Below are positions 2,689 to 16,391 of a stretch of DNA of 64,000 nucleotides, piece after piece. Each line of letters opens with the position of its first letter. Position 1 is the stretch's first letter. A program made the position numbers and the translations under genes. The notes under the pieces are model-generated. The model saw only the letters and a program-made list of their open reading frames with translations. It ran no database searches and was not told the origin of the DNA. Origin of the DNA: Comamonas sp. JUb58 (GTDB lineage Bacteria; Pseudomonadota; Gammaproteobacteria; Burkholderiales; Burkholderiaceae_C); assembly GCF_004364775.1 (NCBI RefSeq), contig NZ_SOAL01000002.1, forward strand, positions 186,001 to 250,000, in the 5' to 3' direction.

Positions 2689-3825
2689 CTACACCGGGCT
2701 AAGCACATAGCTCGTGCTGCGCCCACCTGCTGGCTCCTTGGCCAACACTCCCAGCGTCAGCAACTCGTTGATATCTCGTAGTGCCGTGTCGCTGGAGCAC
2801 TTGGCGATGGCCGCCCATTTCCCGGTCGTGAGCTTTCCGTCAAAGCCATCGAGCAAGCGGTTCAGCACCTTGATATGGCGCTCGTTCATCGGCGCCATCG
2901 CCCAATGGCGCCAAAACCGCGCCTTATAGAGTACGACCGCCAAACCCTCGTTCGCTTGTAGGACCGCCTGGTGCAAGGTCTTCAGAAACCACAGCAGCCA
3001 TGGCGTCACATCCATGCCGCCCTTTTGCGTGCGCTCCAAAACCTCGTAATAGGCCTTGCGCTCGCGCTGTATTTGGGCAGACAGGCTGTAAAAGCGCTGC
3101 GCACTGCCATCCGCGCGCGCCAACAGCAGATCACCGATGGCCCGCGCCATACGACCATTGCCGTCATCAAAAGGGTGGATGGTCACAAACCACAAATGCC
3201 CCAACCCAGATTTGAGCAATGCCGGAAGGGTGGAATGCACCGGGTCATTGATCCAGGCCAGCAACTTGGCCATCTCTGCAGGCACTTGGGGGGCAGGAGG
3301 CGCTTCGTAATGCACTTTCTGGCGGCCGATCGGGCCTGATACCACCTGCATGGGGCCCGCTGCGTCATCGCGCCACGTGCCCACCGCTATCTTGCTCATG
3401 CCCGAATAACCGGTTGGGAACAAGGCGGCATGCCAGCCATAGATGCGCTGCTCGGTGACGGCTTGCTGGTGGTTTGCCGTCGCGTCGAGCACCATCTCGA
3501 CCACACCCTCCACATGCCGGTCTACCGGTGCGAGCGCCCCAATGTCCAACCCCAACCGCCGGGCGATGGAGGAGCGCACAGACGCCACATTGAGCGACTC
3601 CCCTTCGATCTCGGAAGTCTTGAGCACATCCTGCGTCAGCGCAGCCAGGCTCGCCTGGTCCCTTAGGCCCATGCCGACATCCGCCAGGCGCCCAAGCAGC
3701 ATGCCTTGCGCCTGACTGACCTGCGCCAGTGGAGCAGCCAGGGCATCGCTATCGAACTGCCACTGAGGCCAGTGCGGGGATTGCCAGATATATTCACCGC
3801 TAAACATGCGGTGAATAATAGACAT
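2689..3825 (-). CDS. Fic family protein (probable AMP transferase)
   Basis: The 378-residue protein has the complete Fic active-site motif HPFDDGNGRMAR at residues 217-228, in which the His is the catalytic base and the acidic/GNGR part binds the nucleotide phosphates. Such proteins usually transfer AMP to a Ser, Thr or Tyr of a target. An N-terminal inhibitory helix motif of the (S/T)xxxE(G/N) type is visible as TSEIEG at residues 70-75, which places it in the intramolecularly inhibited class. The C-terminus (about 310-378) looks like a winged-helix domain. There is no small antitoxin gene beside it, consistent with self-inhibition. It stands alone between two unrelated operons. The ATG at 3825 has a weak ribosome site; ATG 3807 is an alternative. 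The target is unknown. Confidence 0.88.
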   Translation of the reverse strand: MSIIHRMFSGEYIWQSPHWPQWQFDSDALAAPLAQVSQAQGMLLGRLADVGMGLRDQASLAALTQDVLKTSEIEGESLNVASVRSSIARRLGLDIGALAPVDRHVEGVVEMVLDATANHQQAVTEQRIYGWHAALFPTGYSGMSKIAVGTWRDDAAGPMQVVSGPIGRQKVHYEAPPAPQVPAEMAKLLAWINDPVHSTLPALLKSGLGHLWFVTIHPFDDGNGRMARAIGDLLLARADGSAQRFYSLSAQIQRERKAYYEVLERTQKGGMDVTPWLLWFLKTLHQAVLQANEGLAVVLYKARFWRHWAMAPMNERHIKVLNRLLDGFDGKLTTGKWAAIAKCSSDTALRDINELLTLGVLAKEPAGGRSTSYVLSPV

Positions 3826-3898: not shown

Positions 3899-4267
3899 TC
3901 AGTGGCTAATCATCCAAGGCCGATTCCCCACCTGGCTTTTTAGCGCCGGCTGCGCCGCAGCCGCAGCGGCGCCGGTCTTGGCACCCCCACTGCAACACCC
4001 ACAGCCACTGGGATGCCGCAGCCGCCCATAGTTGCCCGCAGCAGGATCGTTATCCCGCGACATACGCGGCGCATGGCGGGCGCGTTCGTTGACCTCGGCG
4101 GCGCGGCGCTGCTGGGGGGAGGTGCAGGCCAGGCGCGGTGCCTGGCTGATGACGCGCTCGGAGGCCGCGCCGCAGCGGGGGCAGGCGCAGGCCAGGTTGC
4201 GGTCGGCCAGGCGGCGCAGCGCGTCGAATTCGCCGCAGTGCTGGCAGGCGTAGTCATAGGTGGGCAT
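3899..4267 (-). CDS. fmdB: FmdB family zinc-ribbon protein
   Basis: This 122-residue protein begins MPTYDYACQHCGEFDALR and continues with CACPRCG, the paired CxxC knuckles of the FmdB/CxxC_CxxC_SSSS putative regulatory family. The C-terminal half is low-complexity, with a GCGCCSGG patch. The ATG at 4267 is chosen over an upstream GTG because AGGAG lies at the right distance and the conserved MPTYDY start coincides with it. It is the last gene of the urt-fmdA operon. In Methylophilus methylotrophus FmdB was proposed to regulate the formamidase operon; a role here in regulation or in metal delivery to formamidase is inference. Confidence 0.85.
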   Translation of the reverse strand: MPTYDYACQHCGEFDALRRLADRNLACACPRCGAASERVISQAPRLACTSPQQRRAAEVNERARHAPRMSRDNDPAAGNYGRLRHPSGCGCCSGGAKTGAAAAAAQPALKSQVGNRPWMISH

Positions 4268-4329: not shown

Positions 4330-5553
4330 TTACTTGTCGTACGAGATCGGCATATCGATGCTGCCGTCCAGGTACTTGACCGGCCCAGCCGCGCTGGGGT
4401 TGATGTCGAAATCAAAGATCTGCGTGGGCAGCCACAGCGTGGCGCAGGCATTGGGCACGTCCACCACGCCGCTGATATGGCCCTGCACCGGGGCGGTGCC
4501 GAGGATGGAATAGGCCTGGGCGCCCGAGTAGCCAAACTTCTTGAGGTACTCGATGGCGTTCAGGCAGGCCTGCTTGTAGGCCACGTTCACATCCAGGTAG
4601 TACTGCTTGCCCGATTCGTCGACGCTGATGCCTTCAAAGATCACATAGTCGTTGTAGGTCGGCACGATGGGGCTGGGCTTGAAGATGGGGTTCTTGATGC
4701 CGTACTTGGCCATGCCGCCCTTGATGATGGACACCTTCATGTGCACCCAGCCGGCCATCTCGATCGCGCCGCAGAAGGTGATTTCGCCATCGCCCTGGCT
4801 GAAGTGCAGATCGCCCACCGACAGGCCGGCGCCATCGACATAGACCGGGAAGAAGATCTTGGAGCCGCGCGAGAGGTCCTTGATATCGCAGTTGCCGCCA
4901 TGCTCGCGCGGGGGCACGGTGCGCGCGCCGCTGGCTGCGGCCTTGTCGCGTGCCTCGCCCTTGAGCTGGCCCATGTGCGCCGTCGCCATGAAGGGCGGGT
5001 TGGCCAGGTTGCCGTCCGGGTTGGTGTCGATCAGCGCCTGCTCGCGCGCATTCCAGGTCTCGAGCATCTTGGGATCGGGCAAGGTGCCGATCAGGCCGGG
5101 GTGGATCAAACCGGCATAGCGCACGCCGGGGATGTGGCGCGAGGTGGTGAACATGCCCTGGAAATCCCAGATCGATTTTTGCGCGGACGGGAAATGGTCC
5201 GTCAGGAATCCGCCGCCGTTCTTCTGCGAGAAAAAGCCGTTGAAGCCCCATTGGCTCTCGTCCTTGGCGCCGATGTCGAGCAGGTCCACAACCAGCAGGT
5301 CGCCCGGCTCGGCACCTTTGACGCCGACCGGGCCCGAGAGGTAGTGCACCGTGGTCAGGTCCACATCGCGCACATCGTCGGCGCTGTCGTTGTTCTGGAT
5401 GAAGCCCCCCGTCCAGTCGTAGGTCTCCAGCACAAAGTCATCGCCGGGGTTCACCCAGCAGGCCATCGGAATATCGGGGTGCCAGCGGTTGTGCACCTTC
5501 TCGTTGGAGGGGGCCGGTTGGGACAGATCAACCTTGATCAGGGTTTCGGGCAT
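4330..5553 (-). CDS. fmdA: Formamidase (acetamidase/formamidase family)
   Basis: The product is 407 residues, in line with the formamidase of Methylophilus, and hydrolyses formamide to formate and ammonia in the cytoplasm. Recognisable family segments are NRWHPDIPMACWVNPGDD, EPGDLLVVDLLDI, HPGLIGTLP, PPREHGGNCDIKDL and VGDLHFSQGDGE. The start at 5553 (MPETLIKVDL) is preceded by AGGAG; an in-frame ATG eight codons upstream lacks a comparable site. It lies between urtE and fmdB, with 80 and 62 bp gaps, and is probably co-transcribed with both. The context indicates that the neighbouring transporter imports short-chain amides, urea or both as a nitrogen source. Confidence 0.93.
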   Translation of the reverse strand: MPETLIKVDLSQPAPSNEKVHNRWHPDIPMACWVNPGDDFVLETYDWTGGFIQNNDSADDVRDVDLTTVHYLSGPVGVKGAEPGDLLVVDLLDIGAKDESQWGFNGFFSQKNGGGFLTDHFPSAQKSIWDFQGMFTTSRHIPGVRYAGLIHPGLIGTLPDPKMLETWNAREQALIDTNPDGNLANPPFMATAHMGQLKGEARDKAAASGARTVPPREHGGNCDIKDLSRGSKIFFPVYVDGAGLSVGDLHFSQGDGEITFCGAIEMAGWVHMKVSIIKGGMAKYGIKNPIFKPSPIVPTYNDYVIFEGISVDESGKQYYLDVNVAYKQACLNAIEYLKKFGYSGAQAYSILGTAPVQGHISGVVDVPNACATLWLPTQIFDFDINPSAAGPVKYLDGSIDMPISYDK

Positions 5554-5633: not shown

Positions 5634-6323
5634 CTAAACCGACAGATAGGACTTGATGTGGGCCTCGTTGGTGTTGGCGCGGTCGGTCTCGTGCACGATG
5701 CGCCCGCCCTCGATGACAAAGAGCCGGTCGGCCACATCCATCGCAAAATGCAGCACCTGCTCGGAGACGACGATGGTGATTTCGCGCATCTTGCGGATCT
5801 CATTGAGCGCCTTGGCGATGTCCTTGATGATGGACGGCTGTATGCCCTCGGTGGGCTCGTCGAGCAGCAGCACCTTGGGGTTGGTGACCAGCGCGCGGGC
5901 AATGGCCAGCTGCTGCTGCTGCCCGCCCGAGAGGTTGCCGCCCTTGCGCCGGCGCATGTCCCAGAGCACCGGGAACAGCGCATAGATCTCGTCGGGGATC
6001 TTGCGGTCGCGGGCGTTTTCCAGACCGGTCTCGATGTTCTCCTCGACGCTCAGGGTCGGGAAGATCATGCGGCCCTGGGGCACATAGGCAATGCCCTTGG
6101 CCACGCGCAGATAGCTCTCGTCGCGCGATACGTCCTGCCCCGCCACCTGCACCGCCCCGCTCTTGAGCGGCAGCACGCCCATCAGCGCCTTGAACAAGGT
6201 GGTCTTGCCCATGCCGTTGCGGCCCATGATGGCCAGGGTTTCATTGGGCCGGCCTTCGAAGGAGATGCCATGCAGCGCCTCGCTCTGTCCGTAGGCCACG
6301 TGGATATCGTTGACTTTCAGCAT
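5634..6323 (-). CDS. urtE: Urea/amide ABC transporter ATP-binding protein UrtE
   Basis: A 229-residue LivF-type ATPase with Walker A GRNGMGKTT, signature LSGGQQQQLAIARAL, Walker B VLLLDEPTEGIQPSII and the switch histidine position replaced as usual in this family (VSEQVL). The motifs PTEGIQPSII and MGVLPLKSG are typical of UrtE. The ATG at 6323 (MLKVNDIHVAYGQSEAL) lies 10 bp downstream of the urtD stop. It would pair with UrtD to drive the UrtBC permease. The frame is open upstream of 6323 but those codons overlap urtD and are not conserved. Confidence 0.9.
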   Translation of the reverse strand: MLKVNDIHVAYGQSEALHGISFEGRPNETLAIMGRNGMGKTTLFKALMGVLPLKSGAVQVAGQDVSRDESYLRVAKGIAYVPQGRMIFPTLSVEENIETGLENARDRKIPDEIYALFPVLWDMRRRKGGNLSGGQQQQLAIARALVTNPKVLLLDEPTEGIQPSIIKDIAKALNEIRKMREITIVVSEQVLHFAMDVADRLFVIEGGRIVHETDRANTNEAHIKSYLSV

Positions 6324-6333
6324 ATGCGGCTCC

Positions 6334-7077
<744 letters not shown>

Positions 7078-7091
7078 TGCTCACTCCTGGT

Positions 7092-8291
7092 TCAGACGCC
7101 TTCGGCCGCGGGCTTACCGGCGACCGGCTCCTGCGCCTTGCTGCTGGCCGGGCTGGTGATGGGTTTGCTGACCGTGCTGTTCGCCGCAGGGATGGGCGGG
7201 CTGGCAGGTTTGGCGGCGCGCCGGGCCAGCATGGGCTTGAGCTTGCTCGCATACAGGCCCGCCAGGCCGTTGGGGAAGAACATGGTCACCACAATGAAGA
7301 GGCCGGCCATGCAGAACATCCAGAGATCGGGGAAGGTCTCGGAGAAATAGGTCTTGCCAAAGTTGACCAGCAGCGCGCCATAGACGGCACCGACCAGGCT
7401 CATGCGGCCACCGACGGCGGCAAAGATCACCATCTCGATCGAGGGAACAATGCCGACGATGGAGGGCGACATAAAGCCCACCTGCAGCGCAAACATGGCG
7501 CCGCCAATGCCCGATATCGCAGCGGCCAGGCAGAACACAAAGACCTTGAACATCGACACGTCGTAGCCGGAGAAGCGCACGCGGTCTTCCTTGTCGCGCA
7601 TCGCCAGCAGCAGGGTGCCGAGCTTGCTTTTCTGGATCCAGAGGCAGGCCACCACCGACAGCAGCAGCAGGCCGCAGCAGACGTAGTAGAGGATGTACTT
7701 GGCGCTGTCGGTGCGGATGTCCCAGCCCAGCATGGTGCGCAGGTCGGTCATGCCGTTGACACCGCCGGTGTAGCCCTGCTGGCCGATGATCAGCACCGTG
7801 AGGATCAGCGCCACGGCCTGGGTGATGATGGCAAAGTAGACATCGCCCACCCGGCGGCGGAACATCGCAAAGCCGATGATGAAGGCCAGCAGCGCGGGGG
7901 CAGCCACCACGGCAAACAGCGCAAACGGCAGGTGCTCGAACGGCGTCCACCACAGCGGCAGCGCGGTGAGCTGGTTCCAGTCCATGAAGTCGGGGATGCC
8001 CGGTGTGGACTGGATGCTGGTGCTGGCCTTGTCCGAGGCTTCGAGCTTGAGGAACATGGCCATCGCATAACCGCCCAGGCCAAAGAACACGCCCTGCCCC
8101 AGGCTCAGCACGCCGCCCCAACCCCAGAGCATGACCAGGCCCACGGCCACAAAGGCGTAGCAGAGGTACTTGCCCACCAGGTTCAGGCGGAAGGAATCCA
8201 GCGCCAAGGGGAACACCAGCAGCAGCACCACGGCCAGCAGTGCCACATGTCCCAGGCCGGTTCGTTCCAGCCACGCACGCATATCTTTCAT
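7092..8291 (-). CDS. urtC: Urea/amide ABC transporter permease UrtC
   Basis: A 399-residue polytopic LivM-type permease with about ten hydrophobic segments. Family segments include LCYAFVAVGLVMLWGWGGVL, SLGQGVFFGLGGYAMAMFL, QGYTGGVNGMTDL and the EAA-like loop FSGYDVSMFKVFVFCLAA. The start at 8291 (MKDMRAWL) is favoured because AAAGGA lies nine bases upstream; an ATG three codons earlier sits directly on that site. A Pro/Ser/Ala-rich cytoplasmic tail of about 40 residues follows the last helix and is longer than in typical UrtC. It forms the inner-membrane channel with UrtB. Confidence 0.92.
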   Translation of the reverse strand: MKDMRAWLERTGLGHVALLAVVLLLVFPLALDSFRLNLVGKYLCYAFVAVGLVMLWGWGGVLSLGQGVFFGLGGYAMAMFLKLEASDKASTSIQSTPGIPDFMDWNQLTALPLWWTPFEHLPFALFAVVAAPALLAFIIGFAMFRRRVGDVYFAIITQAVALILTVLIIGQQGYTGGVNGMTDLRTMLGWDIRTDSAKYILYYVCCGLLLLSVVACLWIQKSKLGTLLLAMRDKEDRVRFSGYDVSMFKVFVFCLAAAISGIGGAMFALQVGFMSPSIVGIVPSIEMVIFAAVGGRMSLVGAVYGALLVNFGKTYFSETFPDLWMFCMAGLFIVVTMFFPNGLAGLYASKLKPMLARRAAKPASPPIPAANSTVSKPITSPASSKAQEPVAGKPAAEGV

Positions 8292-8314: not shown

Positions 8315-9229
8315 TTAGCGGCGCACCTTGCTGGCAAACAAACCTTGGGGCCGCAGCATCAAGACCACGACGATGAAGGACAAGGTCAGCACCTTGGCCA
8401 TGGAGCCGCTCAGGAAGAACTCCGTGATGGACTGCACCTGGGCAATGCCAAAGGCCGATGCCACGGTGCCCAGCAGGCTGGCGGCGCCGCCAAAGGTGAC
8501 GACCAGGAAGGAATCCACGATGTAGAGCGAGCCGGAGGTGGGCCCCGTCGAGCCGATGGTGGTGAAGGCCGCCCCGGCAATGCCTGCCACCCCGCAGCCA
8601 ATGGCAAAGGTCAGGCGGTCGGTCTTCTTGGTGTTGATGCCGATGGCATTGGCCATCACGCGGTTGCTGACCGTGGCCCGCACCCGCAGGCCCCAACGGC
8701 TGCGGTAGAGCGCAATCAGCACACCGGCCGTCACCAGCAGCGCCAGCGCCAGCACAAACATGCCGTTGATCGGAATGTCCAGCCCCTCGCTGGGCGACCA
8801 GGAGCCCATCAACCAGTCAGGCAAGGTGGGGCTCACCTCTTTGGGGCCGATCACCGAGCGGAACACCTGCTGCAGCCCCAGGCTCAGGCCCCAGGTGGCC
8901 AGCAGGGTATCGAGCGGGCGCTTGTACAGATGGCGGATCAGCGCCCATTCGGCCAGCCAGCCCAGCACAAACGCAAAAACAAAGGCAGCCACGATCGACA
9001 AGGGAAAGTAGTAGGGCATCCAGGCCGGTGCATGGGCTTCCACCAGGGTGGAGGCCATGAACACGGTGTAGGCGCCGATGGTCATGAACTCGCCATGCGC
9101 CATGTTGATGACACCCATCTGGCCAAAAATAATCGCCAGGCCCAGGCCCATCAGCAGCAATACCGCAAACAGGCTGAGGCCTGCAAAGCCCTGCATCAGC
9201 CCGATATTCATCATTTCAGAAAAGGTCAT
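8315..9229 (-). CDS. urtB: Urea/amide ABC transporter permease UrtB
   Basis: A 304-residue LivH-type permease. Recognisable segments are GLGLAIIFGQMGVINMAHGEFMTIGAY near the N-terminus, LLATWGLSLGLQQ in the middle and the conserved RATVSNRVMANAIGINT loop that contacts the ATPases. The ATG at 9229 (MTFSEMMNIGLMQGF) follows AAGAGAG and is preferred to an upstream ATG inside a less conserved stretch. It lies between urtA (77 bp) and urtC (23 bp). Confidence 0.92.
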   Translation of the reverse strand: MTFSEMMNIGLMQGFAGLSLFAVLLLMGLGLAIIFGQMGVINMAHGEFMTIGAYTVFMASTLVEAHAPAWMPYYFPLSIVAAFVFAFVLGWLAEWALIRHLYKRPLDTLLATWGLSLGLQQVFRSVIGPKEVSPTLPDWLMGSWSPSEGLDIPINGMFVLALALLVTAGVLIALYRSRWGLRVRATVSNRVMANAIGINTKKTDRLTFAIGCGVAGIAGAAFTTIGSTGPTSGSLYIVDSFLVVTFGGAASLLGTVASAFGIAQVQSITEFFLSGSMAKVLTLSFIVVVLMLRPQGLFASKVRR

Positions 9230-9306: not shown

Positions 9307-10554
9307 TTATTGGTAACCCTTGGGGAATGGATCCGGTTTGATCAATTCAGGCGACTCGGACACGACCTTGAAAGTCCCGTCCGGCAGGCCTTGCGAGATG
9401 CGCGACTTGCTCCAGAGGTGGTGGTTGGCGTCGATCTTCACGTAGCCTTCGGGGGCGGTGTTCAGCTCGATGCCTGGCGATGCGGCCACGACCTTGTCCA
9501 CATCGAAGCTGCCGGCCTTCTCGACAGCGGCCTTCCACAGCCAGGGGCCCAGGTAGCCGGCCTGGGTCACATCGCCGATGACCGACTTGGGGCCGTACTT
9601 GGCCTTGAAAGCCTCGACAAACTTCTTGTTGTTGGGGTTGTCCAGCGACTGGAAGTACTTCATGCTCGAGTAGAAGCCGGCAAAGTTCTCGCCGCCAATG
9701 CCCAGCATTTCGTCCTCGGTCACCGACAGGGTCACCAGGAACTGCTTGTCACCGGTGATGCCTGCGGCCTTGAGCTGCTTGTAGAAGGCCACGTTGGAGC
9801 CACCCACTACAGCCGCAAAGATCAGATCGGGCTTGGCCACCTTGATCTTGTTGATCAGCGAGTTGAAGTTGGTGTTGCTCAGCGGGTAGTACTCCTCGCC
9901 GACGACCTTACCCTTCTGGAAGGTCTCGATGTGCTTGCGCGCAATCTTCATCGAGGTGCGCGGCCAGATGTAGTCGGAGCCCACCAGGAAGACCTTGGAG
10001 GCGTTCTTCTCCTTCTTGGCCCAGTCGAGGCTGTACAGAATTTGCTGGGTCGCTTCCTGGCCGGTGTAGATGACGTTCTTGCTCTGCTCCAGGCCTTCGT
10101 AGAAGGTGGGGTAGTAGAGCAGGCCGTTTTCCTTCTCGAAGACCGGCAGCACGGCCTTGCGCGAGGCCGAGGTCCAGCAGCCGAAGACGGTGGCCACATG
10201 GTCGCTGATGAGCAGCTTCTTGGCCTTTTCGGCAAAGGTGGGCCAGTCGGAGGCGCCGTCTTCCTTGATCACGCGGATCTTGCGGCCCAGCACACCGCCC
10301 ATGGCGTTGATCTGGTCAATGGCCAGTTGCTCGGCCTGGATGGAGCCGGTCTCGGAGATCGCCATCGTGCCGGTCGAGGAGTGCAGCTGCCCGACCACCA
10401 CCTCGGTATCGGTCACCGCCAGCTTGCTGGTGTTGACCTGGGTGGTGGGTGGCGTCTGGGCACGCGACAGCATGGGCAGACCCGCCATGCTGATGGCACC
10501 CAGGCCTTGCAAGAGACGGCGGCGGCGGAGCGACTGTTGGAAATCCTGAGACAT
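9307..10554 (-). CDS. urtA: Urea/short-chain amide substrate-binding protein UrtA
   Basis: A 415-residue periplasmic solute-binding protein. The N-terminus SLRRRRLLQGLGAISMAGLPMLSRAQT has a twin-arginine-like run and an AQ-type cleavage site, so export by Tat is possible. The family signature FGCWTSASRKAVLPVFEKEN at about 120-140, with GLLYYPTFYEGLEQS, marks UrtA/FmdD rather than LivJ. It is the first gene of the minus-strand operon; the start is preceded by GAGGAG. Clustering with formamidase suggests that formamide, acetamide or urea is bound. Expression is probably under the divergent two-component system through the intergenic palindromes. Confidence 0.92.
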   Translation of the reverse strand: MSQDFQQSLRRRRLLQGLGAISMAGLPMLSRAQTPPTTQVNTSKLAVTDTEVVVGQLHSSTGTMAISETGSIQAEQLAIDQINAMGGVLGRKIRVIKEDGASDWPTFAEKAKKLLISDHVATVFGCWTSASRKAVLPVFEKENGLLYYPTFYEGLEQSKNVIYTGQEATQQILYSLDWAKKEKNASKVFLVGSDYIWPRTSMKIARKHIETFQKGKVVGEEYYPLSNTNFNSLINKIKVAKPDLIFAAVVGGSNVAFYKQLKAAGITGDKQFLVTLSVTEDEMLGIGGENFAGFYSSMKYFQSLDNPNNKKFVEAFKAKYGPKSVIGDVTQAGYLGPWLWKAAVEKAGSFDVDKVVAASPGIELNTAPEGYVKIDANHHLWSKSRISQGLPDGTFKVVSESPELIKPDPFPKGYQ

Positions 10555-10612
10555 GCTTTTCTCCTCAAGTGGTTCAGGGGCTGAACCGGTAACGGGTTGA
10601 AACCTGTTGGTC

Positions 10613-10641: not shown

Positions 10642-10657
10642 TACGTCATTTGACGTA
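10642..10657. promoter_or_regulatory. Perfect inverted repeat TACGTCA-TT-TGACGTA, candidate response-regulator operator
   Basis: Two 7-bp arms are exact reverse complements separated by TT. The repeat lies in the 245-bp region between the divergent urtA operon and the hybrid kinase/LuxR genes. LuxR/NarL-type regulators bind dyads of this size as dimers, and a two-component system is encoded next to it, so it is a likely operator. Binding is inferred. Confidence 0.55.
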
Positions 10658-10799: not shown

Positions 10800-13700
10800 A
10801 TGACCAAGCCCTCCCAAAAGATCTTCCCGATCCGCCGCGAATACAACGCCTGGGTGGCCGACGAGACCATGGAGGACTACGCACTGCGCTTTACGCCGCA
10901 GAAAGCACGGCGCTGGAGCGAATGGCAGCTGCTGAACACGGCGATGGGCGGGCTGTCCTTTCTGGCGCTGGAGGCCATTGGCGCGACCATCACCCTGGCC
11001 TATGGCTTCAGCAGCGCCGCCTGGGCCATTACGGTGATGGGCATCGTGATCTTTCTGACCGCCTGGCCCATCTCGGTCTGCGCGGCGCGCTATGGGCTGG
11101 ACATGGACCTGCTCACCCGGGGCGCCGGCTTTGGCTACCTGGGCTCGACCATCACCTCGCTGGTCTATGCCACCTTCACCTTCATCTTCTTTGCGCTGGA
11201 GGCGGCCATCATGGCGCTGGCGGTGCAGATGGCGCTGGGCTGGCCGCTGGTGGTCTGCTATGTGCTGTGCGCGCTGGTGGTGATACCGATGGTGCTGTAT
11301 GGCGTCACCTTCATCTCCAAGCTGCAGGCCTGGACCCAGCCGCTGTGGGCACTGATGCTGCTGACGCCCTACCTCTGGCTGGCGTTTGCGCAGCCCCAGT
11401 TTGTGCATGAGCTGCCGGGCCTGTCGGGCCTGACCTCGGGCAGCGCCGATTTCAACTGGCTGTATTTCGGCTCGGCCAGCACGGTGATCTTTGCGCTGAT
11501 CGTGCAGGTGGGCGAGCAGGTCGATTACCTGCGCTTCATGCCGCGCAAGACGGCGGCCAACCGGGGGCGCTGGTGGTTTTGTGTGCTGATGGGCGGGCCG
11601 GGCTGGATCCTGATGGGTGCCGCACGCATGCTGGGCGGCGCCTACCTGGCCTATGTGGCGCTGCAGTTTGGCTCGACTGTGGCCGAGGCCTCGGACCCCA
11701 CCCACCTCTACCTGACGGCCTTTGGCAAGATCATCCAGGACCCGGGCATCGCCCTCTGGGTCACCCTCGTCTTCGTCATCATGGCGCAGATCAAGATCAA
11801 TGTGACCAATGCCTATGCCGGCTCGCTGGCCTGGTCCAATGTGTTCTCGCGCATCACCCGCAGCCACCCCGGCCGTGTGGTGTGGCTGGTGTTCAATGTG
11901 ATGATCGCGATGCTGATCATGACCCTGGGCGTGTTCAGCGCCTTGGAGAAGGTGCTGGGCATCTACAGCAACATCGCCGTCGCCTGGGTGGGCGCGCTGG
12001 TGGCCGATCTGGTCATCAACAAGCCGCTGGGGCTGAGCCCGCCGGGCACCGAGTTCCGGCGCGCCTACCTGCATGACCTCAACCCCGTCGGCCTGGGGGC
12101 CATGGGCATTGCCGCGCTGGCCGCCGGCATTGCCTACAGCGGCCTGCTGGGCGAGCTGGCCAGCGCCTTTGCGCCCTATATCGCACTGGTGATTGCGCTG
12201 CTGGTATCGCCCTTGCTGGCCTGGGCCACGCGCGGGCGCTGGTACATCGCCCGCCAGCCCGCGCTGTTTGAGGCGCCCGAGCTGCCATGCGCCGTGTGCC
12301 AGAACCAGTTTGAGCGCGCCGACATGGCCGCCTGCCCCGCCTATGGCGCGCCGATCTGCTCGCTGTGCTGCTCGCTCGATTCGCGCTGCCATGACCGCTG
12401 CAAACCCAGCACCGCGCGCGCCCAGGTGCAGTGGCGCAGCCTGTACGAAAGCCTGCTGCCCCAGCGCATCCAGCGCAGCATCAATTTTCGGCTGGCATCC
12501 TATGCCGGCACGGTGCTGCTGCTGACCAGCCCGATGGCGCTGGCCTTGTTCGTGGTCTATATGCAGCAAAGCCTGTCGCCCGGGCAGACCGATTTGCGCT
12601 GGGCCTTTGTGCGCGCCTTCTCGCTGCTGGCGCTGCTGTGCGCGCTCTACGCCTGGTGGCTGGTGCTGGCCAAGGACAGCCGGCGCATGGCGCGCGAGGA
12701 ATCGGAGCGCCAGACGCAGATGCTGCTGCAGGAGATCGAGGCCCACCAGCGCACCGATGCGCAGTTGCAGGCCGCCAAGGAGCATGCCGAGGCGGCCAAC
12801 CAGGCCAAGTCACGCTATGTGGCCGGCATGGCCCATGAGCTGCGCACGCCGCTGACCAGCATCCTTGGCTATGCCCAGCTGCTGCTGCGCCGTAGCGACC
12901 TGCCCGGCCCCGCGCACGAAAACATCAGCACCATGCTGCACAGCGGCCAGCACATGCATTCGCTGATCGACGAGCTGCTGGACCTGGCGCGCATCGAGGC
13001 TGGGCGCCTGCGGCTGGACCCGGCGCCGTTGCAGTTCCCCGAGTTTCTGGAAGCGGTCAACCGCATGGTGCGGCCCCAGGCCCAGGCCAAGGGCTTGCAG
13101 TTCGAGCTGCAGACGCAGGGCCGCATTCCGCAGTGGGTGCGGGCGGACGCCAAGCGCCTGCGCCAGATTCTGATCAACCTGCTGGGCAATGCCATCCGTT
13201 TTACCGACAGCGGCAGCATCCGCCTGCAGGTGGACTGCCACAGCGATGTGGTGCGCTTTGACATCCGCGACACCGGCATCGGCATTGCCCCGCAGGACCA
13301 TGAGCGCATCTTCATGCCCTTTGAGCGGGGCAGCGCCGGGCGCCGCGCAGCCAGCACCGGCACCGGCCTGGGCCTGACCATCACCCGCATGCTGACCCTG
13401 CTGATGGGCGGCGAGCTGAGCCTGCAAAGCACGCCCGGCCAAGGCAGCACCTTCTCGGTACGCCTCTACCTGAGCGAGGTGCACAACCCGCCGCGCGCGC
13501 TGGCAGGCCAGCCCCAGGCGCGGCCCTTTATCGGTGGCTACCTGGGCCCGCGCAGAAGCCTGCTGCTGGTCGATGACCAGCCCATTCACCGCCAGCTGAT
13601 CGCCGGGGTGCTGATCCCGCTGGGCTTTACCGTGCTGGAGGCGGCCAGCGGCCATGAGTGCCTGGAGATCATCCGCGATGCGCCACCCGACGCCATCCTG

Positions 13701-14183
13701 CTGGACCTGAGCATGGACGACCTGAGCGGCTGGCAGACCGCTGCGCTGGTGCGCCAGCAGTACAGCGCCGCGCACCTGCCCATCGTCATCGTTTCGGCCG
13801 ACCTGTTCGAGAACCAGCCCGAGCAGCTCGAGCGTGCCGGCTGCCAGGCCTTTGTCGGCAAGCCGGTGCTGGAGTCCGAACTGATGGACACCCTGGCCTG
13901 GCTGCTGAAGCTGGAATGGCTGGAAGACACAGCCGCGCCCCCGCCCCCCGCAGCGCTGCCCACTAGCGCGCAGGAGCCGCCGCTGCCGCCGGATCTGCAA
14001 TCGGACCTCACCCGCCTGGCCCGCTTTGGCGATGGCGCCGGCCTGCGCAAGCTGCTGGCCGCCGCCCAGGCCAGCCACCCTGAATCACGCCATGCGCTGC
14101 AGGCCCTGGATGCGGCGGCTCAGCGTTTTGATTTCCCCTTCATCCTGGAGCGCCTGGCGCCTGCGGAGCACAGCGAGCCCTGA
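10800..14183 (+). CDS. Hybrid sensor kinase fused to an NCS1-type permease domain
   Basis: This 1127-residue protein has a composite architecture. Residues 1 to about 470 resemble a complete nucleobase:cation symporter-1 permease (purine/cytosine/allantoin family), with ARYGLDMDLLTRGAGFGYLGS and about twelve hydrophobic segments. Residues 497-534 hold eight cysteines (497, 500, 512, 520, 523, 524, 530, 534). Two more membrane segments lie around 555-635, then a coiled linker, HisKA with MAHELRTPL (phospho-His 679), HATPase_c (N-box LINLLGNAIRF, G1 DTGIGIA, G2 GTGLGLTIT), and a REC domain with Asp969 in ILLDLSMDD. The ATG at 10800 is taken; a GTG directly before it is in frame. The gene ends 2 bp before the LuxR regulator and diverges from the amide transporter operon, suggesting that it senses amides, urea or nucleobase-like nitrogen sources. 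The CbrA kinase, with its SLC5 transporter domain, is a conceptual parallel from another family. Confidence 0.88.
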   Translation: MTKPSQKIFPIRREYNAWVADETMEDYALRFTPQKARRWSEWQLLNTAMGGLSFLALEAIGATITLAYGFSSAAWAITVMGIVIFLTAWPISVCAARYGLDMDLLTRGAGFGYLGSTITSLVYATFTFIFFALEAAIMALAVQMALGWPLVVCYVLCALVVIPMVLYGVTFISKLQAWTQPLWALMLLTPYLWLAFAQPQFVHELPGLSGLTSGSADFNWLYFGSASTVIFALIVQVGEQVDYLRFMPRKTAANRGRWWFCVLMGGPGWILMGAARMLGGAYLAYVALQFGSTVAEASDPTHLYLTAFGKIIQDPGIALWVTLVFVIMAQIKINVTNAYAGSLAWSNVFSRITRSHPGRVVWLVFNVMIAMLIMTLGVFSALEKVLGIYSNIAVAWVGALVADLVINKPLGLSPPGTEFRRAYLHDLNPVGLGAMGIAALAAGIAYSGLLGELASAFAPYIALVIALLVSPLLAWATRGRWYIARQPALFEAPELPCAVCQNQFERADMAACPAYGAPICSLCCSLDSRCHDRCKPSTARAQVQWRSLYESLLPQRIQRSINFRLASYAGTVLLLTSPMALALFVVYMQQSLSPGQTDLRWAFVRAFSLLALLCALYAWWLVLAKDSRRMAREESERQTQMLLQEIEAHQRTDAQLQAAKEHAEAANQAKSRYVAGMAHELRTPLTSILGYAQLLLRRSDLPGPAHENISTMLHSGQHMHSLIDELLDLARIEAGRLRLDPAPLQFPEFLEAVNRMVRPQAQAKGLQFELQTQGRIPQWVRADAKRLRQILINLLGNAIRFTDSGSIRLQVDCHSDVVRFDIRDTGIGIAPQDHERIFMPFERGSAGRRAASTGTGLGLTITRMLTLLMGGELSLQSTPGQGSTFSVRLYLSEVHNPPRALAGQPQARPFIGGYLGPRRSLLLVDDQPIHRQLIAGVLIPLGFTVLEAASGHECLEIIRDAPPDAILLDLSMDDLSGWQTAALVRQQYSAAHLPIVIVSADLFENQPEQLERAGCQAFVGKPVLESELMDTLAWLLKLEWLEDTAAPPPPAALPTSAQEPPLPPDLQSDLTRLARFGDGAGLRKLLAAAQASHPESRHALQALDAAAQRFDFPFILERLAPAEHSEP

Positions 14184-14185
14184 CC

Positions 14186-15070
14186 ATGCCTACTTTCCAA
14201 GCCCATGCCGGCGTTGTTCTTGTGGTGGACGATGCCGTCGAGACCCTGGGATTTCTCTGCGAGGCGCTGAGCCAGCAGGACTACACCGTGCTGCTGGCCC
14301 GCAATGCGGCCGAGGCGCTGGAGCGCCTGGAGATCGCCACGCCCGATGCCCTGCTGCTGGACTGCGTGATGCCCGGCGAAAGCGGCTTCTCGCTGTGCCG
14401 CAAGATCAAGGCCCACCCGGCCTGGACCCATGTGCCGGTGATCTTCATGACCGGGCTGTCGGAGACCGACCATATCGTGGAAGGCTTTGCCTGCGGCGGG
14501 GTGGACTATGTGGTCAAACCGCTGAAGCTGCCCGAGGTGCTGGCCCGGCTGGCTCGCCATATGCACAACGCCCATGTGGGCCGCATGGCCCAGGCCGCCG
14601 TCGATGTGGCCGGCATGGGCGTGGTGGTGTTGGACCGCCAGGGGCGCCTGGCCTGGCGCTCGCCCCAGGCGGCGCTGTGGCTGGAGCAGGCCTTTGGCGC
14701 CAGCGCGGCAACGGCTGCGGCCTGGCTGCAATCGGCCCGCCACCAGTCCGCCCAGCAGGCGCTGGGGCAAGGCACCCTGGTGGCCCAGGATGTCGGCGAG
14801 GTGGGCATTGGCGAGCGCATGCTGGTGCTGCGCCTGGGCCATGACAGCCTGCGCGCCAGCACCCAGCGCCTGCAGGATGCCGCGCTGACCCCACGCGAGA
14901 CGGAGGTGCTGGGCTGGCTGGCCAAGGGCAAGACCAACCGCGACATTGCGCAGATCCTGGGCATGAGCCCGCGCACCGTCAACAAGCACCTGGAGCATGT
15001 GTTTGAAAAGCTGGGCGTGGAGACGCGTGCGGCGGCAGCGGCCATCGTCAGCGGCTCGCTGACGGCGTAA
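14186..15070 (+). CDS. Response regulator: REC, PAS-like linker, LuxR-type HTH
   Basis: The 294-residue protein starts with a receiver domain (VVDD near residue 15, phospho-acceptor Asp59 in LLLDCVMPG, Lys in VVKPLK). Residues of about 130-225 (AVDVAGMGVVVLDRQGRLAWRS onward) resemble a PAS fold, and the C-terminus has a LuxR/GerE helix-turn-helix (LTPRETEVLGWLAKGKTNRDIA, then RTVNKHLEHVFEKLGVETR). It begins 2 bp after the hybrid kinase stop, so the two are almost certainly co-translated and form one phosphorelay. The natural target is the divergent urt-fmd operon. No ligand for the PAS-like part can be assigned. Confidence 0.88.
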   Translation: MPTFQAHAGVVLVVDDAVETLGFLCEALSQQDYTVLLARNAAEALERLEIATPDALLLDCVMPGESGFSLCRKIKAHPAWTHVPVIFMTGLSETDHIVEGFACGGVDYVVKPLKLPEVLARLARHMHNAHVGRMAQAAVDVAGMGVVVLDRQGRLAWRSPQAALWLEQAFGASAATAAAWLQSARHQSAQQALGQGTLVAQDVGEVGIGERMLVLRLGHDSLRASTQRLQDAALTPRETEVLGWLAKGKTNRDIAQILGMSPRTVNKHLEHVFEKLGVETRAAAAAIVSGSLTA

Positions 15071-15404: not shown

Positions 15405-16391
15405 ATGAACAAGATGATGCAATGGACTGCACTGGCCCTGGCGGCCGCTACCGCCACCGGCGCCTATGCCGACGCCTCCTACCCCAACAAGCCCATCACC
15501 ATCGTCGTCCCGTTCACGGCAGGCGGCCCGACCGACCGCGTGGCACGCGATCTGGCCGAAGCACTGCGCAAGCCCCTCAATGGCGTGACCGTCGTCATCG
15601 ACAATGCCGACGGCGCGGGCAGCACCATCGGCATGGCCAAGGCCGCACGCGCCAAGGCTGACGGCTACACCCTGCTGCTCAACCACATCGGCGTGGCCAC
15701 CGCTCCTATCCTGTACCGCAAGCTGTCCTTTGATGTGACCAAGGACTTTGAATACCTGGGCATCATCAACGACGTGCCGATGACCCTGATCGGCAAGCCC
15801 ACCTTGGCACCGAACAACTACAAGGAACTGGCCGCCTACCTGAACAAGGAAAAGGACAAGGTCAACCTGGCCAATGCCGGTATTGGTTCCGCCTCGCACC
15901 TCTGCGGCCTGCTGCTGCAAAGCACCCTGAAGATCCCGCTGACCGCAGTGCCTTACAAGGGCGCCGCACCGGCGATTGCCGACCTGATGGGCAACCAGGT
16001 GGATGTGCTCTGCGACCAGACCACCAACACCACCGGCCAGATCGAAGGCAAGAAGGTCAAGGCCTATGCCGTGACCACCAACAAGCGCCTGACCACGCCA
16101 TCGCTGAAGGACCTGCCGACTCTGCAGGAAGAAGGCCTGAACGGCTTTGAAGTGACGATCTGGCACGGTCTGTACGCCCCCAAGGGCACGCCGGCCGACA
16201 TCCTGAAGAAGGTGAACGACGCACTGAAGGTGGCCTTGAAGGACCCCGAGTTCATCAAGAAGTCCGAGAACCTGAGCGCCGTGGTTGCCACCGACCAACG
16301 CATCACGCCCGAAGGCCACAAGGCCTTTGTGCAGGCTGAAATCGCCAAGTGGACGCCCATCATCAAGGCGGCCGGCACCTTCGCTGACTGA
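15405..16391 (+). CDS. Bug/TctC family tripartite tricarboxylate receptor
   Basis: A 328-residue extracytoplasmic solute receptor. The Sec signal peptide (MNKMMQWTALALAAATATGAYA) ends with an AYA-type site, followed by the mature start SYPNKPITIVVPFTAGGPTD, diagnostic for the Bug family. Later segments VPYKGAAPAIADLMGNQVDV and GLYAPKGTPADI also fit. Such receptors bind carboxylates or other small anions for TctAB-type carriers, but no tctA or tctB is near. It is a monocistronic unit bounded by a strong terminator at 16407-16437. The ligand is unknown; the large upstream region suggests regulated expression. Confidence 0.88.
   Translation: MNKMMQWTALALAAATATGAYADASYPNKPITIVVPFTAGGPTDRVARDLAEALRKPLNGVTVVIDNADGAGSTIGMAKAARAKADGYTLLLNHIGVATAPILYRKLSFDVTKDFEYLGIINDVPMTLIGKPTLAPNNYKELAAYLNKEKDKVNLANAGIGSASHLCGLLLQSTLKIPLTAVPYKGAAPAIADLMGNQVDVLCDQTTNTTGQIEGKKVKAYAVTTNKRLTTPSLKDLPTLQEEGLNGFEVTIWHGLYAPKGTPADILKKVNDALKVALKDPEFIKKSENLSAVVATDQRITPEGHKAFVQAEIAKWTPIIKAAGTFAD

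Follow-up and report, generated by a model that had tools for sequence, protein, structure and literature searches.

When the input domain of a sensor histidine kinase appears to be an entire permease, what does the kinase perceive? The question is raised by a gene of Comamonas sp. JUb58, studied here within a 64,000-nucleotide stretch of the genome (RefSeq assembly GCF_004364775.1, contig NZ_SOAL01000002.1, positions 186,001 to 250,000 of the forward strand; this whole stretch is the window, and coordinates refer to it unless a locus is named). On the forward strand, an ATG at 10800 opens a frame whose stop codon ends at 14183, and the 1127-residue product is predicted to be a hybrid histidine kinase fused to a nucleobase:cation-symporter-1 (NCS1)-type permease. 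We consider it likely, from comparisons of sequences and models, that this protein is a permease-derived, transceptor-like kinase that senses urea or short amides and, through its regulator, activates the divergent operon urtABCDE-fmdAB; the ligand, the direction of the response, the phosphotransfer route and DNA binding by this regulator are those that we infer below.

The identity of the N-terminal domain is not apparent from routine searches. Pfam model PF02133 (NCS1) gives no match to it at E-values up to 10, a search of PDB sequences likewise gives none, and the NCBIfam cytosine-permease model touches it weakly (E 6.8e-4, 18.5 bits versus a cut-off of 326); none of these routes provided a usable family, and naming the domain required the comparison of folds and profiles. 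An AlphaFold model of residues 1-641, built from a 53-row alignment, has a mean pLDDT of 84.8 and a pTM of 0.87, and Foldseek ranks two chains of CodB and three Mhp1 entries as its top five solved matches. In VIA-align, the model matches CodB with Z 35.5 (398 of 400 residues aligned, root-mean-square deviation 3.4) and Mhp1 with Z 27.9-30.8, the next family reaching 25.2. SLC5 is not the nearest fold: DUR3, SiaT, CHT1 and NIS, which we take to be SLC5-type entries, score Z 21.7-23.2, as against 27.9-35.5 for CodB and Mhp1. Additionally, a profile of 53 sensors and 11 unfused relatives was compared with CodB/Mhp1-type profiles using hhalign, the E-values being those of single-profile comparisons: the probability is 98.2% (E 5.7e-14) versus a six-sequence set and 98.8% (E 1.1e-16) versus a ten-sequence set (one row, L254, probably in the wrong reading frame), whereas the controls (reversed sequences, UrtB, UrtC and AmiS) give 0.1% with E 0.4-0.6. 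PF02133 is silent on three unfused relatives as well as on the sensor, and, therefore, we speak of an NCS1-related clade outside PF02133. Judged by model and profile, the domain is a divergent NCS1-related domain and not a plain member of the family; the initial annotation, which had described the sensory part as a whole NCS1-like permease, is upheld by fold and profile for residues about 23-480 (10866-12239, forward strand), if not by any PF02133 match.

The residues of the presumed transport core were compared across 156 sensors (two of 158 having been dropped as short) and 10 unfused permeases (one duplicate row dropped). The register to CodB is identical and ungapped in a MAFFT alignment, which contains several wrong-frame rows, and in a clean hhalign alignment, a thin profile having gapped transmembrane helix (TM) 8; CodB residue numbers and the comparison with Mhp1 were taken from PMC9379551 and PMC13390362, and from a CodB/Mhp1 alignment. 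Ten residues, namely, Q236, E239, Q240, D242, R245, K332, N334, T336, N337 and Y339, are identical in all 156 sensors and all 10 unfused permeases, and E134, at the place of Mhp1 Gln121, is found in 155 of the former and all 10 of the latter. As to which substrate and sodium residues remain, a matter raised by the initial annotation, the answer is mixed: the CodB Arg216/Tyr285 pair is retained as Arg245/Tyr339, and Asn280 as Asn334, but the aromatic sandwich around the substrate is not kept, Trp108 being replaced by Phe130 (153/156, still aromatic) and Phe204 by Leu233 (154/156), and the TM8 hydroxyls of the Na2 site, Thr278 and Thr279, are replaced by Lys332 (156/156) and Ile333 (155/156), respectively, as they are in all 10 unfused permeases. 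Sodium coupling is not universal in NCS1, according to PMC13390362. Within TM1, E58 is specific to the sensors (156/156); the unfused permeases carry Phe or Gln there, and Asp57 instead. The loss of one stacking ring and the gain of Glu/Gln would fit a small amide better than a base. Since the core residues are alike in urease-linked and amide-linked sensors, the ligand cannot be named more closely.

Between the permease and the kinase lies a finger with eight cysteines (C497, C500, C512, C520, C523, C524, C530 and C534; 12288-12401), which are all present in the 156 sensors and partly lost in most unfused permeases; therefore, a role specific to the sensors would be expected for it. Its resemblance to RING domains is suggestive only, the matches being weak (Prok-RING_1, E 0.28-0.98; PDB zinc/RING profiles, E 3.7-7; Foldseek, E 0.79 and weaker). 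In the AlphaFold models, this small beta finger is followed by a TM helix (563-591) and one continuous helix (597-697) that would lead from the membrane into the DHp domain with its H-box His679 (12486-12890 for both helices). The linker has no match to a STAC-named Pfam family, and its model consists of the small beta finger and two long helices, no direct STAC profile comparison having been made. The remainder of the protein is a hybrid histidine kinase, as first annotated: domain searches recognize HisKA (669-735) and HATPase (783-891) domains, together spanning 12804-13472, and a receiver (922-1032; 13563-13895), with the H-box His679, the N, G1 and G2 boxes, and the acid pocket, Asp and Lys of the receiver all in place. 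Other kinases of the same genome match the protein from residue 577 onward only, that is, over the linker and the kinase half. Immediately downstream, on the same strand, an open reading frame (14186-15070) encodes the predicted cognate response regulator, of 294 residues, in which a receiver is joined to a LuxR/GerE helix-turn-helix.

The fusion of an NCS1-type domain to a kinase is common in Proteobacteria. Of the genomes sampled, 143 of 250 from the same family (at least four of them with weak matches, E 1e-9 to 1e-14) and 58 of 398 from the phylum have a match to the sensor N-terminus at E up to 0.001; by a hand count, 52 of the 398, the window's genome included, carry it with no less than 46% identity in an open frame that is 894 residues or longer. 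Matches also occur in 535 of 72,556 plasmid records, fused and unfused together, 342 of which are from Klebsiella. Two entries of the plasmid collection, NZ_CP104448.1 and CP125156.1, are chromosome-sized (4.1 and 5.4 Mb) and probably mislabelled as plasmids.

Gene context was assessed by comparing 79 genome stretches of up to 19.5 kb, 80 other loci and the window with reference proteins; the resulting 158 distinct sensors were picked by sensor similarity, not by context, and include many close kin, so that they do not amount to 158 independent events. Within 10.5 kb, 151 of them have urt, fmd, ure, amiS or amiE genes; three of the seven exceptions lie on short loci (L123, L194 and L103). The urt/fmd co-occurrence on which the initial annotation had staked its proposal is conserved in the amide-linked sensors, while related sensors adjoin urease instead. 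The partner sets vary, comprising urt-fmdAB, urease with a different urt set, or fmdAB and AmiS without urt, and this exchange of partner genes is more independent evidence than the count of loci. At the two loci of the last kind (L078 and L095), urtABCDE is replaced by a channel that is presumably of the UreI/AmiS amide/urea type, and fmdAB, sensor, regulator and operator stay; since fmdAB is kept and AmiS stands in the place of urt, the sensor appears to follow the substrate and not the ABC (ATP-binding cassette) transporter. Of the ligands initially suggested (urea, formamide or hydantoin-like molecules), urea and short amides are favoured by these conserved neighbours, and hydantoin-like compounds receive no support. 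Under a strict rule, 122 of the 158 sensors are immediately followed by a relative of the LuxR-type regulator; seven of the remaining loci end too soon and 29 fail, 10 of these having a weaker match, and at some failing loci the regulator relative overlaps a long kinase frame. The context extends to plasmids, with urea/amide genes in five of six annotated regions (B. vietnamiensis, Chelatococcus, S. medicae, Klebsiella and Methylovirgula, but not Tistrella): urtABCDE is three genes away in S. medicae, and the neighbours are amiF-urt in Klebsiella and fmdAB in Methylovirgula. In one Klebsiella plasmid (L206, 5900-16255), amiF-urtEDCBA is divergent from sensor and regulator, and the operator matches at 13/14. 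FmdA is encoded once in the JUb58 genome, as are the urease UreC, on another contig, and, above cut-off, UrtA, so that the likelihood of the sensor lying close to such genes by chance would be of the order of 1-2%.

The 242-base divergent region between urtA and the kinase contains TACGTCATTTGACGTA at 10642-10657, a palindrome (TACGTCA-TT-TGACGTA) that we predict to be an operator. Among 98 amide-linked sensors, counting that of the window, 87 are preceded by a palindrome TACGTCA-N2-TGACGTA matching in at least 11 of 14 bases, as against none when each of the 98 regions is shuffled once; the core, TACG-N8-CGTA, is found in 80 of these regions, the mean of 20 shuffles being 0.3. The operator persists where AmiS replaces urt (14/14 in L078 and 13/14 in L095) and reaches 12-13/14 next to plasmid-borne sensors of Burkholderia, Chelatococcus and Klebsiella. 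If two mismatches at most are allowed, the 5.46-Mb genome has a single site, at this locus, compared with 15 for a backward-read control pattern. Moreover, in 20 loci drawn from 61 genomes (its own included), the sensor adjoins six of seven perfect sites, the window's own among them, and none of 13 imperfect ones. The remaining perfect site (L265, genome G723) is accompanied by a regulator of 68% identity and a UrtA of 39% identity, and no sensor N-terminus was seen within that 3-kb locus. Two candidate operators had been proposed for the intergenic region by the initial annotation: that at 10642-10657 proves to be strongly conserved, whereas the inverted repeat at 10571-10587 is absent from the top words and palindromes listed. 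No terminators were found between urtA and the kinase. An operator shared by the urease-linked sensors was also sought, and none was found.

The unfused relatives come from a plasmid search with one unfused permease: 18 of its 25 best records had an unfused match and 11 of these were examined, the other seven being near-copies of examined ones, or one unannotated Arthrobacter. Seven of the 11 adjoin urease (A. johnsonii, A. ursingii and K. pneumoniae), formamidase, as fmdA (M. osloensis and Tsukamurella), or aliphatic amidase (Arthrobacter U41 and Methylovirgula), the A. johnsonii and A. ursingii proteins being identical. In A. baumannii (L241, 4338-9608), an unfused permease is divergent from a fused sensor of the same clade, with a TACG-N8-CGTA palindrome between them. 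The annotated neighbours of the S. angustmyceticus and Arthrobacter NicSoilB11 permeases include no urea/amide gene, and near that of S. chartreusis, in an unannotated record, no urea/amide match to the queries was found. Four of the unfused relatives that adjoin urease or formamidase genes (L204, 5663-7270; L242, 5956-7563; L243, 5926-7569; and L246, 5953-7641) are annotated as 'allantoin permease', 'cytosine permease' or hypothetical; they are candidate urea/amide permeases, possibly misnamed. In a tree of 37 sensors (dereplicated from the 156) and 10 unfused permeases, the root of which is not fixed, one branch (100/97) splits the sensors from the unfused permeases and 10 sensors, mostly urease-linked, cluster together (100/99), a topology that fits a single fusion with a later shift to urease.

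In the mechanism that we envisage, a permease for urea and short-chain amides, from a distinct NCS1-related clade, would have been joined, probably in a single event, to a hybrid histidine kinase. With the permease domain acting as the sensor, its central NCS1 site would bind urea or a short amide (formamide or acetamide); the change between outward- and inward-facing states would pass via the eight-cysteine finger and TM13-14, along the continuous helix into the DHp domain, and would alter the autophosphorylation of His679. The phosphoryl group would then reach the LuxR-type regulator, directly or via the kinase's own receiver, and the regulator would bind TACGTCA-N2-TGACGTA, activating urtABCDE-fmdAB and probably its own operon too. 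The outcome would be that the cell imports the amide and hydrolyses it for nitrogen.

Several observations weigh against this proposal. Close relatives that share synteny do not provide independent evidence. The full flanks of four sensors (L160, L190, L107 and L099) contain none of the tested urea/amide genes, and no urea family occurs among the 25 Pfam families listed, of 80 and 45, for their neighbours. In both comparisons, no regulator relative was seen beside L098, L100, L105, L113 and L168, and at the first four of these the operator was not found either (8-9/14); S. medicae (L203) has a poor motif as well (10/14, core absent), and the core occurs with one of 47 urease/urt-linked sensors. 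A search between urtA and the kinase found no sigma-70-like promoter, and domain searches recognized no HPt domain in the kinase, so that the proposed phosphotransfer route is tentative. Finally, the positions that split urease-linked from amide-linked sensors are conservative or peripheral ones only.

Three other explanations of the locus have to be considered. The domain might still transport urea or an amide, with the signal depending on turnover rather than on binding alone. That its core residues are the same as those of the unfused permeases speaks for this, as does the histidine uptake reported for the SLC5 part of CbrA in PMC13022988 and PMC7096432; against it, the neighbouring genes already provide a complete ABC importer, and neither Na2 hydroxyl ligand is left. 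The unfused relatives lack these hydroxyls too, and, therefore, their loss is no argument against transport as such. We regard signalling by turnover as possible, albeit doubtful. A domain reduced to a degenerate membrane anchor, the true signal coming from elsewhere (the nitrogen status of the cell, a periplasmic partner such as UrtA, or a metal at the cysteine finger), seems unlikely: it could account for a finger that is invariant in the sensors and partly lost in most unfused permeases, and for the four full-flank sensors without the usual neighbours, but mere anchoring would hardly call for the 10 core residues that all 156 sensors share with the unfused permeases, and UrtA is not found in the L078/L095 arrangement.

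Least probable of all, and in our view scarcely tenable, is that the kinase mainly regulates other targets and that its closeness to urt-fmd is an inherited neighbourhood without function. Many of the 158 loci are indeed close relatives with common ancestry, yet the partners swap (urt-fmd, urease or AmiS-fmd) and remain in urea/amide metabolism, the operator is unique in the genome and located in the joint promoter region, and the sensor is beside all but one of the seven perfect sites (one being the window's own) and none of the 13 imperfect ones in the 20 loci.

Kinases fused to transporters are already known. In the SLC5/STAC kinases (CbrA, CrbS and RpuS), as outlined in PMC13022988, a complete LeuT-fold transporter is likewise joined to a histidine kinase, and a response regulator that controls nutrient uptake or use likewise follows; here, however, the permease is NCS1-like and not SLC5, the eight-cysteine finger and TM pair appear to take the place of the STAC and PAS domains of CbrA, and the context is urea/amide nitrogen instead of histidine, acetate or pyruvate. 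An Amt-histidine kinase of Kuenenia stuttgartiensis (PMC5764959) is likewise a nitrogen-compound transporter fused to a histidine kinase, but with an Amt domain and ammonium in place of NCS1 and urea/amide. With CodB and Mhp1, the sensor shares the fold, profile homology and the Arg-Tyr pair (CodB residues from PMC9379551); it differs in being missed by PF02133, in carrying Leu233 for Phe204 and Lys332/Ile333 for Thr278/Thr279, and in the added finger, TM pair and kinase. The metformin permease MetT represents an NCS1 branch whose substrate is a small nitrogen compound without a ring and whose coupling is reported to be likely to protons rather than sodium; it has no kinase, and we liken it to the sensor by description, not by sequence. 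A word search of the main text finds neither 'urea' nor 'histidine kinase' (PMC13390362). In 2010, a urt-like set of B. japonicum beside formamidase and amidase was inferred from its context to carry amide and not urea, in a report whose text has no word beginning 'kinase' (PMC3098086), and a 2026 preprint on a Klebsiella urea transporter with AmiF (PMC13060141) contains none of 'histidine kinase', 'two-component' and 'sensor'. No report of an NCS1-kinase or of urea transport by NCS1 was among the matches listed from the open-licence literature, which is not proof of absence. The NCS1 version thus appears to be undescribed, in keeping with the initial annotation, which named the SLC5 type (CbrA) and no characterized NCS1 version with this link.

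Looking beyond this locus, we think it fairly probable that the sensors and their unfused relatives belong to an unrecognized NCS1 clade of urea/short-amide permeases, in which one fusion to a hybrid kinase gave rise to a large family of sensors that perceive urea/amides directly; across Proteobacteria, these would control urease, formamidases and urea/amide ABC importers, the plasmid operons of Klebsiella included, and would signal via a sensor-specific eight-cysteine finger that replaces STAC. Such a family would name a specific urea/amide-nitrogen sensor in many Proteobacteria and for the urea/amide operons that Klebsiella carries on plasmids. Substrates would also be suggested for the 'allantoin/cytosine permeases' beside urease, which are probably misannotated. 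An NCS1 sensor with its own coupling module, sometimes an adjacent unfused relative and a mapped predicted operator would, moreover, provide a clean system for the question of how a permease becomes a receptor.

The divergent operon is as initially annotated, UrtA-E and FmdA all scoring above their NCBIfam cut-offs. From the intergenic region outwards, all on the reverse strand, lie urtA, for the amide/urea ABC binding protein (9307-10557; TIGR03407), urtB (8315-9229; TIGR03409), urtC (7092-8261, start codon provisional; TIGR03408), urtD (6334-7077; TIGR03411), urtE (5634-6323, start from the open reading frame, scanned as 5637-6305; TIGR03410) and fmdA, for formamidase (4330-5553; NF045496, 745.7 bits versus a cut-off of 500). 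These are followed by an open reading frame for an fmdB-type zinc-ribbon protein (3899-4267), named after annotated relatives and placed by the conserved order of homologues. Comamonas sp. B21-038 has the same gene order and a sensor N-terminus that is 98% identical. After the regulator gene, the window encodes a TctC tripartite-type solute receptor (15405-16388), which is also present in Comamonas sp. B21-038 (L118) and rare at other loci. By the fmdB end of the operon, a further open reading frame (2689-3825) contains the stretch HPFDDGNGR, which we take to be a Fic-protein motif.

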